A program made the position numbers and the translations under genes. Shown here piece by piece: positions 21,521 to 32,097 of a stretch of DNA of 64,000 nt; within the stretch, counting starts at the first letter, position 1; every line of letters begins with the position of its first letter. Source of the stretch: Deltaproteobacteria bacterium (GTDB lineage Bacteria > DRYD01); assembly GCA_028276365.1 (NCBI GenBank), contig JAPYWL010000001.1, positions 1-64,000 on the forward strand. Direction: 5' to 3'. The notes below the pieces were generated by a model. That model saw only the letters and a list, made by a program, of their open reading frames with translations, was not told the DNA's origin and searched no databases.

Positions 21521-21550
21521 AAAAAGGGGGAGCTCACGTGCCCCCTTTTT
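21521..21550. terminator. Strong bidirectional terminator between the repeat protein and uppS
   Basis: AAAAAGGGGG (21521-21530) and CCCCCTTTTT (21541-21550) form a perfect 10-bp stem around a 10-base loop. A-tract and T-tract arms serve both strands, so it ends the + gene at 21475 and the - strand uppS at 21569. Confidence 0.93.
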
Positions 21551-21568: not shown

Positions 21569-22294
21569 TTATTTACCTAATCGCCTTTCACGCTTTTGGT
21601 ATTCCAGAATTGCATAGATGTAATCACTTAAAGTAAAATCTGGCCATAATTTAGGAGAAAAATAAAGCTCAGTATATGATATTTGATACAATAAAAAATT
21701 ACTTATTCTATACTCGTTTCCAGTTCTAATAAGTAAATCTGGTTCCTCTACTAATAAGTAAGATTTTATTAATTCTGAATTTATATATTTAGCTTCTATT
21801 TTATCTTCTATTATTTTCTTAATAGCTTGTTCAATATCATATCTACCTGAATAATTTATCATTACATTTACTTTAATAATGTAATCTTTAGAAGTTTCAG
21901 CCTCCATTAAATCAAAGAGATTTAGTATTTCAGACTTTATGTTAAATCTATCTCCAATAAATTTAACAAAAACTTTATCTTCTTTTAATCTAGATAACTC
22001 CCTTTTAATAAGGTATTCCATTAAATTAAAAATGAATTCAATTTCATTTTTATTTCTAGCCCAATTTTCTTTTGAAAAAGCAAAAAAAGATAATTCTTTT
22101 ATTCCTAAATATCTAGATAAATCTATTATATTTTTAAATACGTTAAAACCTTTTTGATGTCCTACATAAGATGGTAAATTTTTAGCTTTAGCCCATCTTC
22201 TATTACCATCCATTATAAAAGCAATATGATTAGGTAATTTAGTTTTATCTATTAATTTTATTAAATCTTCTAATTCACTATCTATTATTAACAT
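21569..22294 (-). CDS. uppS: Undecaprenyl pyrophosphate synthase (cis-prenyltransferase)
   Basis: Makes the C55 lipid carrier for cell-wall and glycan synthesis. HIAFIMDGNRRWAK holds the catalytic Asp and phosphate-binding residues, followed by GHQKGF. LSFFAFSKENWAR and LIRTGNEYRISNFLLYQISYTELYF are the other two family blocks, and WPDF ends the core. 241 residues is normal. In the RTSGE block the sequence is RTGNE, a mild change. It is the last gene of the - strand run, ending at the bidirectional terminator. mraY and a WecA/TagO-type transferase elsewhere in the window use its product. Confidence 0.95.
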   Translation of the reverse strand: MLIIDSELEDLIKLIDKTKLPNHIAFIMDGNRRWAKAKNLPSYVGHQKGFNVFKNIIDLSRYLGIKELSFFAFSKENWARNKNEIEFIFNLMEYLIKRELSRLKEDKVFVKFIGDRFNIKSEILNLFDLMEAETSKDYIIKVNVMINYSGRYDIEQAIKKIIEDKIEAKYINSELIKSYLLVEEPDLLIRTGNEYRISNFLLYQISYTELYFSPKLWPDFTLSDYIYAILEYQKRERRLGK

Positions 22295-22330: not shown

Positions 22331-22855
22331 TTAATTTATATTGAATATTACTAATATATTAGTTCCTTTTTCGGATGTATTAATATAAATTTTATTGGCT
22401 AATGTAGAGCATATATTAAATCCGTATCCTAAAGAATCTTCTTTTGAAGAATAATTAGTTAAAGTTACATATGGGATTTTATCCAGATTTATTCCACTTC
22501 CTTCATCATTAAACTCCATTAAAATTAAATTTGGATATATATTTAAAGTAAATGTTCCTCCTTTTGCATGCTTTATCATATTAGTTGCTAATTCACTAAA
22601 TACTAATAAAAGCTGATATATTTTTTGAGGGTTATTTTTTAATTTCTCTATATTAGTTAAAATCTTTTCTAAATTTGACCTACTATAAGATACATCAAAA
22701 TCCTTTAAAATATTTTCTTTTATAACAACTAAAGAAGGACTTTGACTAATTAAATTATGTTTTATTTGAATATATTCATCATACCTTACTAATTCTATTT
22801 TACCTTCTGTTAATTTATAGATTATTTCTTTTATTAATTTTAAATTGGTATTCAT
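22331..22855 (-). CDS. Anti-sigma-factor-type histidine-kinase-like ATPase (RsbW/SpoIIAB group)
   Basis: 174 residues. The C-terminal 90 residues are a GHKL ATPase fold: N box SELATNMIKHA (Glu88, Asn92), G1 box FNDEGSGI (115-122), a lid NYSSKEDSLGYGF with the G2 glycines (142-146), and a final strand GTNILVIFNIN. There is no phosphoacceptor His domain or sensor, so it is not a two-component kinase. Proteins of this shape are serine kinases or anti-sigma switches acting on partner proteins. The N-terminal 75 residues are unique. It lies 37 bases after the roadblock-like gene and before uppS. No anti-anti-sigma (STAS) or PP2C gene is in the window. The partner is unknown. Confidence 0.78.
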   Translation of the reverse strand: MNTNLKLIKEIIYKLTEGKIELVRYDEYIQIKHNLISQSPSLVVIKENILKDFDVSYSRSNLEKILTNIEKLKNNPQKIYQLLLVFSELATNMIKHAKGGTFTLNIYPNLILMEFNDEGSGINLDKIPYVTLTNYSSKEDSLGYGFNICSTLANKIYINTSEKGTNILVIFNIN

Positions 22856-22892
22856 CTATGAAAATATTTTTAATAGATTTTAATAAGAAATT

Positions 22893-23264
22893 TTAATAAG
22901 AATTAAAAGCATAATCAATAGCCATATTGATATATAATTCATTTATACCTTTTGGATAGGTATTATCATACAAAATAACTAAGAAAATATCATCGTTTTT
23001 TATTTCAATAAAATCAACAGTATTTTCTTCAAATTGTAATTTTATTCTTTTTAGATTTTTATCATTTATTATAGAAATATATTTAGAGGATTCTATTTTA
23101 TAGTTTATGAATTTATCTATATAGTCTAAAGCTAGTTCTAAGAAACTTTGAAAATTATTAGGATCTTTAATAGTAGATTCTATTACTTCACCTCCAGCTA
23201 ATCTTGATATAATTAAGGCTCCTTTTATTGAATCGTTTTCTAATAATGTTTCTAAATTTTGCAT
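22893..23264 (-). CDS. Small roadblock/LC7-like protein
   Basis: 123 residues, a tentative call. The start IKGALIISRLAGGEVIES matches the strand-turn-strand with which roadblock/LC7 proteins begin (gali-vsrdG--ias). A helix (FQSFLELALDYIDKFIN) and two further strands (ISIINDKNLKRIKLQF; FIEIKNDDIFLVILYD) follow in roadblock order, and a last helix ends the protein. Roadblock proteins such as MglB are dimers that regulate small GTPases or act as scaffolds. No small GTPase is in the window. The gene is preceded by a 105-base leader with two mutually exclusive hairpins and followed by an anti-sigma-type ATPase, so the two may be a regulatory pair. Confidence 0.5.
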   Translation of the reverse strand: MQNLETLLENDSIKGALIISRLAGGEVIESTIKDPNNFQSFLELALDYIDKFINYKIESSKYISIINDKNLKRIKLQFEENTVDFIEIKNDDIFLVILYDNTYPKGINELYINMAIDYAFNSY

Positions 23265-23281
23265 AACCCTTAAATTTTATT

Positions 23282-23319
23282 TTACCAGCTAATTTATATT
23301 CCGCTTAGCTGGTAAGCGG
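23282..23319 (-). promoter_or_regulatory. Two mutually exclusive hairpins in the leader of the roadblock-like gene
   Basis: On the + strand, TTACCAGCTAA (23282-23292) pairs perfectly with TTAGCTGGTAA (23305-23315). Alternatively CCGCTTA (23301-23307) pairs with TAAGCGG (23313-23319) around a 5-base loop. The two stems share bases 23305-23307 and 23313-23315. In the - strand transcript they lie between the stop of the 916-residue gene and the start of the roadblock-like gene. No T tract follows on that strand, so this is not a classic terminator. Confidence 0.6.
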
Positions 23320-23368
23320 TATTTTCTTATTTTTTATAATTTTTTATTATATTTTTTATAATTTTTAA

Positions 23369-26119
23369 TTATAATAACTCCAATACACTTAATTTACTAA
23401 TTATATTGTTTATTAGCTCTACATCTAATTTACTAATTTCTATAATTATTATTATATTTTTAAAATTTAGTAAAAAGTTATATTTATCAGAAATTTTAAA
23501 TACTAATAAATTTAAATTAATTTTTGGCAGGATACAGGATGAATATAATTTATAAACTAATTTTAATTCATTTATAATTTTTTCTTTAGGAACTAAGCTA
23601 AATTTTTCTTCATTTAATATTTCCCAATCTTTATTCATAATATAATAATTTTCTATTCCCATCTCTTTTATATAATTATCTATATATTCAATGACTTCTT
23701 TTTTATATTTTACTAAAATTTCTTTATTATCAACATTAAAATTATTAATCCAATTAAATTCAATTTCTTTTAAGAAAGAAACACCCAATATCAAACTACT
23801 TATATTTAAAAAACTATAGAAACTAAGTTTATCGTAAATTAATAATAATTCGAATTTCTTTGATGTTATATTTTCTTTTATATTTGATAATTTATTAAAA
23901 ATAATTTCTAATTGATTAGCTATTGGTATATTTTTAGGGAAAATAGTTAATTTATTTGAATATAGAATAATAAGAGTATTTAAAAGTAAAGATTTTGATT
24001 TACTAAATTCTAATATATCCTGTATAACTTTAGGAAAATTATTTTTGCCTTCTTTTGCAAATAATAATATGAAAGTATTAAATATTTCATTGAATATTTT
24101 TATGTTTTTTAAAGAATATAATTCTGTAAATATATTAACTTCCTTAAATGAAATAGAATTAATGTAATTATTTACTAATTCATATTTGTTTAAAATAACC
24201 TTTTCTTCTAATAATTCTTCTTGAATTAATTTTTCTTGCATTTGTTTTTCTTCTATTGTTTCTATTTCTTCTATTGTTTTATCTATACTCATTATATCTA
24301 TATCTATTAACTGTTTTTCATCTTTTGATATAAAATCATTTAATTCAATATCGGATTTGTATTCTGGTTCAGACTTAGTTTTTAATTCAGATTTAATTTC
24401 TTCTTTAATTTCTAATTCAAGTGTGGATTCTAATTGATTAGCATTTGTATTTTCAATAGAAGTTATTGAATTTAAGTTTTCTAAGCCTTGTGTTGATATT
24501 TGTTCTGATTCTTTTGTATTTATCTCAATATTATTGAAAGAGCTTTCACTTTTAAAATCAGATTCTATAATTTTATTATCAATTGTTTTTTCTTCTTTTG
24601 ATGTATTTAAAATTATGTTTTCTTCTAAAATATTATCAATATCTTTAGTTATATTTTCTATTTCTTGTTGATTTATTTTAGTTTCTGTTTGGGGTTGTAA
24701 ACTTACTTTTTCTGTACTTAAAATTTCGCTTGAAGTTTTTTCAATCTGAATTTCTGTAATTATTTCATCTGTATTTTTATCTGTATTTTCAATTATTTTG
24801 TTTATAGCAATTGATTCAATTTCTCTTTCTTTTTCTTCTAATTTATGTAAGATAGGCTTTTCAAAAGATAATAAATCTTCTTTTATTTTTTCTGGGGATC
24901 TTAAAGATATATAATTTACATAATTATTTAAATCAAAATTGATTATAATTTCATTTATATTCTTTTCAAAAATTTTATTATTTATTATTTCTTTTATAAA
25001 ATCCATTTTGTTAACGAAATTATCATAATTAATTTTATCAAAATAAATAATAAATGAATTTGGTAAATTAAAATTGATAAATTTTTCGTTAATCAATTTG
25101 TGATTTGAAATAGGATTTATAACAAAAAACGAACTTGCAATATTAAGTACTTCCATGTCTTTTATATATGAAAAATAATTTATTAAATTAGAATTATTTA
25201 AATTAATTATGAAAATAAAAAATAGTATGGAATTAATATCTATTAACATAATATCTTTTGTGTATTCATATATTTTAAGATTATTAGAAAAATTATTTAA
25301 TAGATATTCTATTATTATATTTTTAAGCCATATACTATTATTTATAAATCTTTCAAAAAATATAGATATCTCAAACTTAGGATCTATAATTTCATTTTTT
25401 AAAGGTTTTTTACAATAAGGACATAAAAAAGTATTGATTACTGATTTTAAATTATTTACATTATTAGTTTGAAATATAAACTCATTTTTTACAGAACACT
25501 TAAATATAAATAAAATTTTTAAAAAATTAATATTTTCTAATTCCTGTAAATATAATAAATTATTTTCGTTTAATTCAATTGGATTTTGATTAAAGATAGA
25601 ATTTATAATATTTATAAAATCTGGAGTAATTATTTTCTTAGATAAATCTAATTCTTTTTGGGAAATATTTAAATTATATTTATTTAAATATTGAGTAAAT
25701 AAAGCGATTTTTTCGTAATCCTTAAAGTATAATTCATAATTACTTATTTCTTCTAATCCTAAAATATTAGCTAATGTTTCTATTATTAATAAATCATTAG
25801 AAAAATTTTTTTCAAAAATAATATAAAAAACTATTAAAAACTCGTCATTTACTTTATTGGGAAAGAAAATTATGATATTATTGATATTAGGATTAAAAAA
25901 ATGAAGAGGCTTAAACAAATAATAATTTTGAGTATTAATCTCTAATTCTTTTACAATATTATAATTTATGAAATTAAAATTTTCTTGTAAAAAAGTATTA
26001 AGTATTTTAGCTTGAATTTCAGTTATTGAATTATTATTTTTTAATTTAAAAATTTTTTTTAATATTAATTTATTTGAGTAGGAACTTTTAATACTATTTT
26101 CTATTTTAGAATTTATCAT
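23369..26119 (-). CDS. Large protein of unknown function with a CxxC knuckle and acidic linker
   Basis: 916 residues; I do not recognise it. Three parts are visible. Residues 1-405 are globular and include a zinc-knuckle-like FLCPYCKKPL (Cys near 233 and 236) with no obvious second pair. Residues about 410-640 are a low-complexity Glu/Lys/Ile/Thr linker, probably disordered with some coiled coil. Residues 650-916 are globular again. The last 90 (YYIMNKDWEIL ... LLNFKNIIIIIEISKLDVEL) have a strand-helix-strand order that could be a roadblock-type domain, which is inference. The Shine-Dalgarno GAGGTGATT lies just before the ATG. It is co-directional with the giant TPR gene 34 bases upstream and the roadblock-like and ATPase genes downstream, suggesting one complex. 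Confidence 0.55.
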   Translation of the reverse strand: MINSKIENSIKSSYSNKLILKKIFKLKNNNSITEIQAKILNTFLQENFNFINYNIVKELEINTQNYYLFKPLHFFNPNINNIIIFFPNKVNDEFLIVFYIIFEKNFSNDLLIIETLANILGLEEISNYELYFKDYEKIALFTQYLNKYNLNISQKELDLSKKIITPDFINIINSIFNQNPIELNENNLLYLQELENINFLKILFIFKCSVKNEFIFQTNNVNNLKSVINTFLCPYCKKPLKNEIIDPKFEISIFFERFINNSIWLKNIIIEYLLNNFSNNLKIYEYTKDIMLIDINSILFFIFIINLNNSNLINYFSYIKDMEVLNIASSFFVINPISNHKLINEKFINFNLPNSFIIYFDKINYDNFVNKMDFIKEIINNKIFEKNINEIIINFDLNNYVNYISLRSPEKIKEDLLSFEKPILHKLEEKEREIESIAINKIIENTDKNTDEIITEIQIEKTSSEILSTEKVSLQPQTETKINQQEIENITKDIDNILEENIILNTSKEEKTIDNKIIESDFKSESSFNNIEINTKESEQISTQGLENLNSITSIENTNANQLESTLELEIKEEIKSELKTKSEPEYKSDIELNDFISKDEKQLIDIDIMSIDKTIEEIETIEEKQMQEKLIQEELLEEKVILNKYELVNNYINSISFKEVNIFTELYSLKNIKIFNEIFNTFILLFAKEGKNNFPKVIQDILEFSKSKSLLLNTLIILYSNKLTIFPKNIPIANQLEIIFNKLSNIKENITSKKFELLLIYDKLSFYSFLNISSLILGVSFLKEIEFNWINNFNVDNKEILVKYKKEVIEYIDNYIKEMGIENYYIMNKDWEILNEEKFSLVPKEKIINELKLVYKLYSSCILPKINLNLLVFKISDKYNFLLNFKNIIIIIEISKLDVELINNIISKLSVLELL

Positions 26120-26153
26120 TAAAAATCACCTCAATTTTCTTAGTTTATAATCT

Positions 26154-29100
26154 TTAGGAATTTATATAATTTATAATTTCTTTTTTAATATTTATATCTA
26201 AATTAGGATTTTTTGCTATATCTTCTTTTATTATTTCTATTCTGTTTTTATCTTTTAATTTTTTATATATTTCGATTAATTTTTTGATAATAATGGGATT
26301 ATTTGGATTATATTCATAAGCCATTTCATAATTATCTCTTGCTTCTATTAATTTATTAATTTTTTCATAAGCAGTACCTATGCTCATATATACATCAGCT
26401 GAAAATGGTTTTATAATCAATGCTTCCTTAAAATATTTTATAGACTCTTCATAATTTCCCTTCTTTAAATTGATAAACCCTAAATGACTTTTAGCTACAA
26501 AATCAAAGCTATTTAATTCATAAGCTTTTAGAAAATCATTCTCAGCTAAATCAAGTTTATTTGCTTTATAATATAATACTCCTCTATTTGAATATAACTC
26601 AGAAGAATCAGGAATATTCTTTATTCCTAAATTATATACATTTAGAGCTTTAACTACTTGATTTGTAGCTAAATAAATTATTGCTAAATATTTATATATC
26701 TCTTCCTTTATAACATTTTCCTCTATTAGTTTAGTTAATATATTTATTGCACTATCATATTTTTTGGTTAATATATAAATATTTACTAAATTTATAGCAA
26801 ACTCTACTGCTTCATAGTATAAATTACTTTTAGTATTACTAAATAAAATATCTTTATATAATTTTAAAAACTTTTTTTCCATTAATTCATAAGCATTTAT
26901 ATTACCTGAATATATCTCTATTAAGCAATTATGATAAATATATAAATTATTATTAGGATTAATTTTTAATAATTTATCAAAAACTTCTTTTGCTAATTTT
27001 AAGTACTTTGATAGCAAATAAGATTTACCTAATAAAAATAACAATAATTCATTTTCATAGTAATTAGATAATTCCAAAAACTGCTCTAAAGCTAAATCAT
27101 ACATATCTCTTAGTAAATAAATACAACCTAAATATAATCTACTTTCATAAAAAAATAAATTATAATTAATACTTTGAGACAATAAAGTGATAGTTTCTTC
27201 TATATTTCCATTAGCTAATTTAAATTTACTAGTAATAAATAAAATATAATATCTATTTTTTTCGTTATATAATTCTTCATTTATTTTATTTAATAATTTT
27301 TCTATTATTTCTAATATTTTCTCATTTTCTATATTAATTTGATTTTTTTCAGAATTAATAAAAAGTCTTATTTTGTCCCATTTTTCATTTATTATATAAT
27401 TATCAAAATCAAGTGTTAGTAAATTTAAAAAAAAGACTCTTAAATCCTCTAAATTTACATCAATTAAATATGAAGGTAATAGGTATATTTTTCGAATCCA
27501 TTCTTTTATGTTAAAATCTAATAATTTTTTACCTATCTCAAAAATTATTTTTACTTCTTTATGTTTTATTTTATCTATATTTAAATAAACATCAAAGAAT
27601 AAATCGTCAATAAAATCTTTTTTATAATCTTTTATTTGATTTAGCAAATTATCTGAAATACCAATACTTAGTTTTACTGATGAAATTAGCAATTCCGTAA
27701 TAAAATATTTTCCATATTTATTTAAAATTGCTTTAATAGATTTTATATCTGATTGATAAATAGAATAATATAAAATAACTCTTATTATGGATATTAAAAT
27801 ATCATTTAAATTATAAAGATTATTTATTATTGTAGCGTGATTTTTTATAACTTCTTGATTATCTATAATATTAACTACCTTTTGATCAATAATCTTTTTT
27901 ATGATATTTCCTAAAACAAAACTTAAGTTTTCTTCTTTCATATTAAAAATTAATTCATAAAAATCAATATTAAATAAATAACTCAAAAATTTTATTGAAT
28001 TATTAATTAAACTAAAAAGTAAATCTTTTTTATTTGAGTTAAATAGATAATGTAAAACAAATATAAAGGAATTATTAAAATAATATACTTCCTCAAAATT
28101 TAAATTTAAAAAATATTTTTTTAAATCTGATAAATAATTATCAAAATTTTCTACAATATTATTAATAATCTCTTCTATCTTTTTGTTGATTTCATTTATA
28201 TTTAAATCAAAAATATAATAATAATACTTTAAGATGAAAAGAGTATCTAAAGTATAATAAATAGTAGAAAAAGTAAAATATTTATAATAACTAATTAAAT
28301 TATAAATTTTTAAATAATCTTGTTTTTTAGATAAGGTAATGATTAAATATTTTAAAATTATACTTAATTGTTGATTATTTAAATTTTTGACATTATTAAT
28401 AAAATAAAAAGCTTTTTCTATTAACTCTTCATAGTTATTTAAATTGTATAATAAACTAAAATAAAATTCTATAGAATTAAAATAATTATTGAAATTAGAA
28501 ATAATTTCATTTTCAATAGAAGTTATTAATTCAAAGGATTTGGAATAATTAGATAATTTTGACAAAACATAAGCATAATAATAAATGAATTCTTTATTAT
28601 TTGGATCACTTATATATAGCTTGCTAATTATTTCATTAGCTAATTTAAAATATTGAATATAATTTTCATTTTCTCCTGTTTTAATTAACGAAATTATATA
28701 TATATAAAGTAACTCTCTTTTATCTTTAAAAAATACATCTTCATTAGATTTTATATCTCCCAAAATGTTGGATAAATTAAGATTACCTATTAAAGATATT
28801 ATCTCTTTATATTTATTTAATTTAAATAATGTTTTTATAATTATTAAATATGAACTAATGGAATTATCAAGATTTTCTATAAATTCAGGAATAAATTTAT
28901 AAGCTTCCTCGTAATTTGATAATTCATAGTTAATAAATATAATTTTTCTTAAAACTTCTAAAAATATCCCTTTATATTTTTTTTGATTTATAAAATCTTT
29001 ATTAGAATATAGTTTATATAAGATATCTAAAGCATTTTTTAAATCCTGTGAATCCCTATTTTCTTTAAGTAAATATATATTAACTAATTCTAAATAATGT

Positions 29101-30368
29101 TCAAATTTTTCTTCTTCTATAAATTTATTTAAAATATTTATTGCTTCATCGTATTTCTTCGCTATTATATATAGCTTAGATATTAATAAGAAGGCATCTT
29201 GTAAATTAGGATCTAATTCGCTGGCTTTAATAGCATAATTTAAAGAATCTTTGTAATTCCTTAATTTGTAATATATTTTTGCTGCTTCTAAATAATAAAT
29301 AGCTTTATTAGATTCTAAATTTATAGCTTTTAATATGTTTTTTAAAGCTCTTGATAATTGACCTACTTTTAAATAACACCTTGCTAAATTATAATAACTA
29401 TAAGAATCATTAGGATCTAAATAAACGGCTCTTAAAAAATGCTTTATTGCTTCATTTATGTTACCAGCGTCTAATAAAGCTACTCCTAAATTATTATGTG
29501 TATAACTATCTAAAGGATTTAAATCAAGAGCTAATCTAAAATATCTTATGGCCTCCTCATAATTACCTAAATTATATAATATTTTTGCTAATTTATAATA
29601 CCAAAAGTAATTATTAGGATTCTTACTGACCGCTATTTTAAAATAATAAATAGCTTTTTCTAAATTTTTTAATTCTTCATAACAAGAACCTAAATAGAAA
29701 TAAGCATCAGCATTATCCTCATTTAGCTCTATTACCTTATTTAAATATTCTATAGCTTCACTAAATTCTTTATTTCTATATAATATTATCCCTATGTTTA
29801 ATAAACTTTCTACATCATCTGGTTTTAATTTTATTACATCTTTCAAAGCATTTAATGCATTATTAAAATCCCCTTTTTTTAACAAAATTAAAGCATATTG
29901 TTTTTGAGTATCTATATCTTCTACTAAACTGGGATTAATATTTGTTTGTAAATTCTGAATCCTTTGAATTTCTTGTAATATCCTTTTTTCTAACCCAATT
30001 GGATCTCCACTTTGCCTTACTAATGATAAAGTTATTTGTAATTCAGATAAGGCCTCAGCATACTTTTTTAACTTACTATACGCTAAAGCTAAATTAAAGT
30101 GAGCACGCGTAAAATGAGGATCTATTGATATTATCTTTTGCCAATACTTTATAGCTTCTTCCAAATTCCCTAAATTAGAATAAATACCACCTAATTCAAA
30201 TAAACCCATCTTATGATTTGGATTTAATTCTAATAATAATTGATAATACTTTAAAGCTTCATCTAATAACTGATTATTAAAATAATAATTAGCTACTTTA
30301 TAAACATCTTCAGGATTAGCTTCTTTTGGATTTAAATTTATCTTTTCCTCTAATTGCTTTATATCCAT
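26154..30368 (-). CDS. Giant tetratricopeptide-repeat protein
   Basis: 1404 residues, cytosolic by sequence: no signal peptide or membrane helix. TPR units of 34 residues fill about residues 1-430 (for example YYFNNQLLDEALKYYQLLLELNPNH, quoted in part: DEALKYYQLLLELNPNH; NLGNYEEAIRYFRLALDLNPLD; NEAIKHFLRAVYLDPND). More fill about 1080-1390 (NLGIKNIPDSSELYSNRG; KGNYEESIKYFKEALIIKP). The middle 650 residues are helical without clear TPR consensus and may be a decayed solenoid. TPR arrays hold partner proteins together. It is preceded by gcvT 14 bases upstream, and followed by the 916-residue unknown, the roadblock-like protein and the ATPase. Its partners are probably these neighbours. Confidence 0.85.
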   Translation of the reverse strand: MDIKQLEEKINLNPKEANPEDVYKVANYYFNNQLLDEALKYYQLLLELNPNHKMGLFELGGIYSNLGNLEEAIKYWQKIISIDPHFTRAHFNLALAYSKLKKYAEALSELQITLSLVRQSGDPIGLEKRILQEIQRIQNLQTNINPSLVEDIDTQKQYALILLKKGDFNNALNALKDVIKLKPDDVESLLNIGIILYRNKEFSEAIEYLNKVIELNEDNADAYFYLGSCYEELKNLEKAIYYFKIAVSKNPNNYFWYYKLAKILYNLGNYEEAIRYFRLALDLNPLDSYTHNNLGVALLDAGNINEAIKHFLRAVYLDPNDSYSYYNLARCYLKVGQLSRALKNILKAINLESNKAIYYLEAAKIYYKLRNYKDSLNYAIKASELDPNLQDAFLLISKLYIIAKKYDEAINILNKFIEEEKFEHYLELVNIYLLKENRDSQDLKNALDILYKLYSNKDFINQKKYKGIFLEVLRKIIFINYELSNYEEAYKFIPEFIENLDNSISSYLIIIKTLFKLNKYKEIISLIGNLNLSNILGDIKSNEDVFFKDKRELLYIYIISLIKTGENENYIQYFKLANEIISKLYISDPNNKEFIYYYAYVLSKLSNYSKSFELITSIENEIISNFNNYFNSIEFYFSLLYNLNNYEELIEKAFYFINNVKNLNNQQLSIILKYLIITLSKKQDYLKIYNLISYYKYFTFSTIYYTLDTLFILKYYYYIFDLNINEINKKIEEIINNIVENFDNYLSDLKKYFLNLNFEEVYYFNNSFIFVLHYLFNSNKKDLLFSLINNSIKFLSYLFNIDFYELIFNMKEENLSFVLGNIIKKIIDQKVVNIIDNQEVIKNHATIINNLYNLNDILISIIRVILYYSIYQSDIKSIKAILNKYGKYFITELLISSVKLSIGISDNLLNQIKDYKKDFIDDLFFDVYLNIDKIKHKEVKIIFEIGKKLLDFNIKEWIRKIYLLPSYLIDVNLEDLRVFFLNLLTLDFDNYIINEKWDKIRLFINSEKNQINIENEKILEIIEKLLNKINEELYNEKNRYYILFITSKFKLANGNIEETITLLSQSINYNLFFYESRLYLGCIYLLRDMYDLALEQFLELSNYYENELLLFLLGKSYLLSKYLKLAKEVFDKLLKINPNNNLYIYHNCLIEIYSGNINAYELMEKKFLKLYKDILFSNTKSNLYYEAVEFAINLVNIYILTKKYDSAINILTKLIEENVIKEEIYKYLAIIYLATNQVVKALNVYNLGIKNIPDSSELYSNRGVLYYKANKLDLAENDFLKAYELNSFDFVAKSHLGFINLKKGNYEESIKYFKEALIIKPFSADVYMSIGTAYEKINKLIEARDNYEMAYEYNPNNPIIIKKLIEIYKKLKDKNRIEIIKEDIAKNPNLDINIKKEIINYINS

Positions 30369-31539: not shown

Positions 31540-32097
31540 TTAATCTACAGGAGTTTTAATTTCGTTTATAATGGGATCATATATTTCATTAAGGATTTCA
31601 TTTTCATATTTTCCATTTGGATATACATATTCTTTAACTAATGCTATCCTTTTAGGTATTATCCCTTCATCATCTGGATAAAACATTAAAAAACGTTCTA
31701 CTATAAAATTACCATTACTTTTATATACTTTAGCAGGTCTTAAGTTATATTTTAAATAAAAATCTTCATCAACACTACCATATGGTTCAAATGGATTTTC
31801 TCCTTTCTTAAATATTTCAATAGCATATAAATCAAAGAACACGTGTAGCTCTGGTTTAGTAAATAATCTTACAAAATCCAATGCAGCTTCTTCATTATCT
31901 ATTAACACTTTATCTTCTAACGATTTAATTGAATTAATTTCTATCTTTTCATCTCCTTTTATTAAATACAATTTTAAACTTGCTTTAACAGGATAAAAAG
32001 AAATACTACTAAACATCATTACTAACCCATACTCACTTTTAAATTTTATTGGAATATTATTAATCCACCCTATATAAAAATTATTTTCCCTACTCAT
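31540..32097 (-). CDS. Conserved-looking hypothetical protein, 185 residues
   Basis: I do not recognise this protein. It is soluble, with no signal peptide, membrane helix or cysteine, and reads as a compact mixed fold rich in beta strands (FYIGWINNIPIKFKSEYGLV; ASLKLYLIKGDEKIEI) with a charged C-terminus (EILNEIYDPIINEIKTPVD). A good Shine-Dalgarno (GAGGT) precedes the ATG. It lies on the - strand between the ACT-domain gene (165-base spacer) and gcvT (56 bases), so it may be co-transcribed with gcvT. The composition matches its neighbours and suggests a real gene. No function is proposed. Confidence 0.6.
   Translation of the reverse strand: MSRENNFYIGWINNIPIKFKSEYGLVMMFSSISFYPVKASLKLYLIKGDEKIEINSIKSLEDKVLIDNEEAALDFVRLFTKPELHVFFDLYAIEIFKKGENPFEPYGSVDEDFYLKYNLRPAKVYKSNGNFIVERFLMFYPDDEGIIPKRIALVKEYVYPNGKYENEILNEIYDPIINEIKTPVD

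Follow-up and report, generated by a model that had tools for sequence, protein, structure and literature searches.

A seven-gene block of Candidatus Calescibacteriota, a little-known lineage of hot-spring bacteria, joins the gene of an ATPase that by its sequence is of the RsbW/SpoIIAB type to genes for a roadblock-fold protein, a 916-aa protein and a giant TPR protein. The linkage is real, and the operon is made of known parts in a new arrangement that does not amount to a known system; its probable function is to control a switch of gene expression, the remaining parts of which are located elsewhere in the genome. The block lies in a window, the whole stretch of 64,000 nucleotides that was analysed, of a metagenome-assembled genome (1.59 Mb, 87% complete) whose host belongs to Candidatus Calescibacteriota according to the taxonomic placement of the genus Candidatus Calescibacterium; a scan with the GHKL alignment gave matches in Candidatus Calescibacterium sp. 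SKYB25 and relatives. This genome (G000) was compared with a sister species (G001), a second genus (G002 to G005) and a second family (G006). The features of the window are as follows:

21528..21545, minus strand: terminator-like hairpin with a T-run, after uppS
21569..22294, minus strand: uppS, last gene of the block (TIGR00055 above cut-off)
22331..22855, minus strand: RsbW/SpoIIAB-like GHKL ATPase by sequence, 174 aa (HATPase_c over cut-off, E 3.9e-9)
22893..23264, minus strand: predicted roadblock-fold protein, 123 aa (AlphaFold model, fold comparison)
23282..23319, minus strand: H-type pseudoknot in the leader of the roadblock gene, CCGCTT-A-CCAGCT-AAGCGG-AATATAAATT-AGCTGG
23369..26119, minus strand: 916-aa protein (orthologues in 4 genomes)
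25412..25423, minus strand: CPYC motif of the 916-aa protein (C233, C236; residues 233-236), invariant in 7 aligned relatives
26154..30368, minus strand: TPR protein, 1404 aa
30383..31486, minus strand: gcvT-like aminomethyltransferase upstream of the TPR gene (PF01571, E 2e-60), adjacency in the block conserved
31540..32097, minus strand: conserved 185-aa protein, first gene of the block (57-88% identity, no Pfam match)

The TPR, 916-aa, roadblock and GHKL genes, described by the first-pass annotation as adjacent and co-directional, are all open reading frames of the minus strand at the coordinates first given, separated by 34, 104 and 37 nt, respectively. Order and strand of the entire block (185-aa protein, gcvT, TPR, 916-aa protein, roadblock, GHKL, uppS) are kept in five genomes of two genera (the window's genome, G001, G002, G003 and G005), so that the four genes stay together across both; in G004, a contig end carries the end of the roadblock gene, then GHKL and uppS, and uppS adjoins the GHKL gene in 6/6 genomes of the family. 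Some gene borders overlap by at least 4 nt in the second genus. Synteny beyond the block is broken between the two genera, and its loss outside a block that is itself kept argues against mere slow rearrangement. Substitutions between the sister species at codon positions 1, 2 and 3 number 24, 10 and 59 in the GHKL gene, 19, 8 and 30 in the roadblock gene, 254, 175 and 329 in the 916-aa gene, and 228, 118 and 400 in the TPR gene; as position 3 changes most, and the order is kept in four other genomes, the four genes are not chance open reading frames. Evidence for the hairpin after uppS is modest, since three such sites occur in the region against 1.0 expected. In G006, the 185-aa protein has a counterpart (L068 4244-4807, 47% identity) whose gene adjoins a smaller TPR gene (416 aa); the STAS gene is found about 4 kb upstream of it, in the same orientation. 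A defence-system reading of the locus was dropped, as PADLOC gave no meaningful match.

Several features assign the 174-aa protein to the RsbW/SpoIIAB-like ATPases. In addition to HATPase_c, it reaches HATPase_c_2 (27.5 bits against a cut-off of 27.4), its best relatives among PDB profiles are SpoIIAB structures (E 6e-4), and the N, G1 and G2 boxes of RsbW-type kinases are intact in a motif alignment. Pfam detects no dimerisation, receiver or sensor domain, which agrees with its initial description as a GHKL ATPase devoid of a kinase sensor and, as in RsbW/SpoIIAB, leaves a stand-alone GHKL protein with no H-box domain. Its match to TIGR01925 is far below cut-off, and the ATP-lid position of SpoIIAB Arg105, a residue that stabilises phosphotransfer and has been discussed for the SypE counterpart (PMC10120452), is not conserved, the family having E-D-S-L-G there. 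The closest sequences outside the family are receiver-GHKL (L063 of G006, L017) or HAMP-GHKL proteins (L015, L016), which share with it, in the alignment, a T-x-GK motif N-terminal to the ATPase domain; the receiver or HAMP input domain fused in these relatives is, in contrast, missing from the 174-aa protein. The HAMP-GHKL gene of L016 is located directly behind a STAS gene.

The usual partner of a roadblock protein is a molecular-switch GTPase. The 123-aa protein is, on its AlphaFold model, a roadblock-fold protein that falls outside PF03259: the model (5 sequences, pLDDT 79.3) has the full roadblock order of elements (alpha-beta-beta-alpha-beta-beta-beta-alpha), and the top ranks of both Foldseek and VIA are all roadblock-type, including LAMTOR and the Rag C-terminal domains. 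The best VIA match is Asgard Roadblock3 (Z 12.8, rmsd 2.5, 113 aligned), and both MglB (Z 12.2) and the Streptomyces Roadblock/LC7 domain 3kye (Z 12.2, rmsd 3.2, 114 aligned) are close. The roadblock likeness first suggested for this protein is thus upheld by the predicted fold. In the profile search, the nearest Pfam profile, SLM4 (Ego3), is matched by 5/5 members of the family at E <= 1 (E 7e-5 for the 123-aa protein, at 23.3 bits under a gathering cut-off of 27), but Robl_LC7 (PF03259) is missed by hmmscan and in the family genomes searched. Ego3/SLM4 and LAMTOR, which provide the best Pfam profile and a strong fold match, differ in being eukaryotic GTPase-scaffold partners. Relatives outside the family are limited to weak, partial matches among 290 genomes. 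G006 has one PF03259 match (L062 3383-3745), to a true Robl_LC7 protein; the next gene encodes an acidic protein, and the neighbourhood differs from the block.

The roadblock gene is preceded by a leader pseudoknot, undescribed before and with no Rfam family match, that combines a CCGC...GCGG stem, an ATATAAA loop and a covarying second stem. Searching Calescibacteriota DNA with a pattern of stem 1 and loop 3 only, stem 2 not being required, yielded 23 distinct instances, not all independent because some are orthologues, each 14-58 nt before an open reading frame start (on L070, L173, L199, L203, L205, L208, L210, L215, L220, L227, L228, L229, L239 and others). Stem 2 pairing averages 18.1 with an instance's own tail against 10.45 (sd 0.72, 200 permutations) with the tails of other instances. 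The same architecture stands upstream of about 20 other genes in the phylum, and the downstream genes, most of them named by eye from sequence starts, include rpsB, rpsD, rplQ, atpH, acpP, asnS, recA, the STAS gene, the short paralogue of the 916-aa protein and the roadblock gene. It was considered as a regulon signal of the last three and dropped: in 1.40 Mb scanned of the sister genome it precedes many housekeeping genes, and so does not tie them together.

The 1404-aa protein is a probable scaffold. In keeping with its first description as a TPR scaffold, it matches many Pfam TPR models (TPR_2, E 9e-81, 14 stretches), with nothing besides TPR-like repeats among the 25 Pfam matches listed. 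Its orthologues share 78% identity within the genus and 45-48% with the other genus, the N-terminal ~430 and C-terminal ~350 residues being conserved between genera and the middle divergent. The 916-aa protein matches nothing in Pfam, NCBIfam or PADLOC, and its layout corroborates the initial picture of a two-domain protein with a CxxC motif and an acidic linker: an N domain (~1-126), a middle domain (~160-385), a linker of ~250 residues (~400-655; 24% D+E against 12% K+R) and a C-terminal region (~655-916). Three cysteines of the middle domain, C208, C233 and C236, are invariant in seven aligned relatives, and C208 together with the CPYC motif likely forms a metal site. Five family genomes and G006 each have two members of this protein family, one long and one of about 400 aa; the long one of G006, in another family of bacteria, has 1185 aa and the same layout, and the other G006 member lies on L156. 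The short paralogue (~398 aa; L136 5684-6880, L152 8521-9714, L153 8182-9378, L154 8129-9322, L155 5469-6665) comprises the N and CxxC domains, and is located between aspS, named by eye from the sequence, and fliF in 5/5 family genomes where it was found. Its cluster also holds long proteins of ~900-1030 aa with no convincing Pfam domain match (L155 10538-13231, L152 13822-16911), and an extended acidic stretch occurs in a related frame of G005 (L136 57-1823).

Could the end of the 916-aa protein itself be roadblock-like, as first proposed? Its order of elements is compatible with this fold, but the model there has a pLDDT of ~47, too low for such a call, and nothing significant came from hhalign against the roadblock alignment, from Pfam, or from sequence and fold searches of the PDB. 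Residues ~155-386 return many restriction-endonuclease-like VIA rows (Can2, VC1899, EcoT38I, DdmD; best Z 8.7) from a weak model, only a hint of a nuclease-like middle region, in which no conserved D...ExK motif was seen by eye. With an overall pLDDT of only 43, neither reading of the 916-aa parts is established.

As first remarked, the immediate neighbourhood has no small GTPase, STAS or PP2C gene; a STAS gene and a PP2C gene, one of each, are nevertheless present elsewhere in the same genome. A search of G000 to G004 and G006 found one STAS gene each in G000 to G003 and G006, unlinked to the operon, and none in G004, which is 71% complete. The DSTGLG site (IDSTGLG) is intact in 5/5 aligned STAS proteins, and that of the window's genome, of the RsbV type, is above the NCBIfam anti-anti-sigma cut-off. 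In G000 to G004 and G006, one SpoIIE-type phosphatase each is likewise found, unlinked to the operon; the catalytic motifs are intact in 5/5 aligned, GAF-type matches occur in 3/3 scanned, and at least ~850 residues precede the catalytic domain. Of seven sigma-70 region 2 matches in the window's genome, one is a SigB/F/G-like sigma, also unlinked (TIGR02980 E 9e-57, 192 bits against a cut-off of 234), and a second is its divergent relative. These STAS, PP2C and SigB/F-type proteins are candidate cognate partners of the GHKL protein. HATPase_c_2 has two or three matches per genome in the order; those outside the operon belong to longer frames, of which the two inspected, one each in G000 and G001, are true histidine kinases. 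No convincing MglA-like GTPase was found by a Roc profile search of seven genomes in which positive controls matched: the matches are frames of ~300 aa or more, or partial, and the single one over cut-off is a 319-aa frame. Despite its closeness to MglB, the 123-aa protein thus appears as an orphan roadblock.

From these parts we infer protein contacts, a kinase activity, a target, and an input role for the roadblock, 916-aa and TPR proteins. A dispersed partner-switching circuit would obtain from the operon both its kinase and, in trans, its input assembly, a reading for which we see about equal chances of being right or wrong. The GHKL protein, with no sensor of its own, would bind and phosphorylate the single RsbV-type STAS protein; once the latter is phosphorylated, the GHKL protein would hold the SigB/F/G-type sigma or another target, and the single GAF-SpoIIE phosphatase would reset the STAS protein. 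Probably as a homodimer, and possibly paired with the 916-aa protein, the roadblock protein would link the GHKL protein to the TPR scaffold; it would thereby stand in for the receiver or HAMP input domain that is fused in the relatives. We judge this dispersed circuit the most likely reading: relatives of the GHKL protein have a fused input domain, STAS and phosphatase genes are present, and a GTPase is missing. It resembles partner switching as described after SpoIIAB/RsbW (PMC10120452) in that a STAS protein with DSTGLG, a SpoIIE-type phosphatase and a SigB/F/G-type sigma are all encoded in the genome, but the genes are dispersed, and the kinase gene is co-transcribed with the roadblock, TPR and 916-aa genes. 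The missing Arg105 equivalent and the lack of linkage of the STAS, PP2C and sigma genes speak against it, as do the TIGR01925 and TIGR02980 matches below their cut-offs; and as the block also contains uppS and gcvT, genes transcribed together do not have to share a pathway.

The initial remark that no described system with this set of genes was known needs one correction. The full set was not found described in the literature searched on roadblock proteins with partner switching, GTPase neighbourhoods or STAS, but a roadblock protein encoded beside a histidine-kinase-type ATPase is known from the actinobacterial conservon (cvnA-D; AGPS) (PMC4316618, PMC13343842), which is the nearest described operon. 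The roadblock protein CvnB has its counterpart, by fold, in the 123-aa protein, but defining parts of the conservon are absent here: the Calescibacteriota operon has no counterpart of the small Ras-like GTPase CvnD and gives no Pfam match for CvnC (DUF742); CvnA is a true histidine kinase with DHp/HAMP, whereas the 174-aa protein is an ATPase domain only; and the Calescibacteriota operon, in a different phylum, adds the giant TPR protein and the 916-aa cysteine-motif and acidic protein. A conservon- or polarity-like module operating without a GTPase, in which the roadblock, GHKL and TPR/916-aa proteins would place or regulate a motility or envelope machine and not a sigma factor, with the STAS and PP2C proteins answering to other regulators, is nevertheless conceivable, but unlikely. 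Roadblock and HATPase genes side by side form the conservon core, the short paralogue of the 916-aa protein lies beside fliF, and neither uppS nor gcvT is a transcription gene; against this count the missing MglA-like GTPase, the missing DUF742, and an ATPase that resembles RsbW and is devoid of the dimerisation domain of histidine kinases.

A role like that of RsbT, which activates RsbU from the stressosome, is improbable. The GHKL protein, freed from the TPR/roadblock/916-aa assembly, would in this case act on the large N-terminal part of the GAF-SpoIIE phosphatase and so activate it. A single phosphatase gene per genome searched, with its long region before the catalytic domain, and a giant scaffold that recalls a sequestering complex would suit such a role, but the operon has no RsbR/RsbS-type STAS proteins, no genome yielded more than one STAS gene, and no RsbT profile was matched. 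Least probable of all is a housekeeping operon of the usual kind with unrelated genes in it, in which the four are neighbours only through slow rearrangement. That gcvT and uppS flank them, that only two genera are available and that the 916-aa protein evolves fast would suit it, but the order of the four survives the loss of outer synteny between genera, and gene borders overlap.

Returning to the dispersed partner-switching circuit, a further, tentative and rather doubtful possibility is that a GTPase-independent roadblock complex serves as a trans-acting input module, a scaffold of roadblock, TPR and cysteine-motif proteins having replaced the fused receiver or HAMP sensor in the Calescibacteriaceae. 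A 2014 survey of prokaryotic small GTPases listed no experimentally characterised example of an orphan roadblock protein, one that has no GTPase partner (PMC4316618). In a lineage in which no MglA-like GTPase was found, the conserved operon described here supplies such an orphan with a serine-kinase-type switch as its concrete candidate partner, and the small soluble proteins of a thermophile bring the question within reach of experiment.
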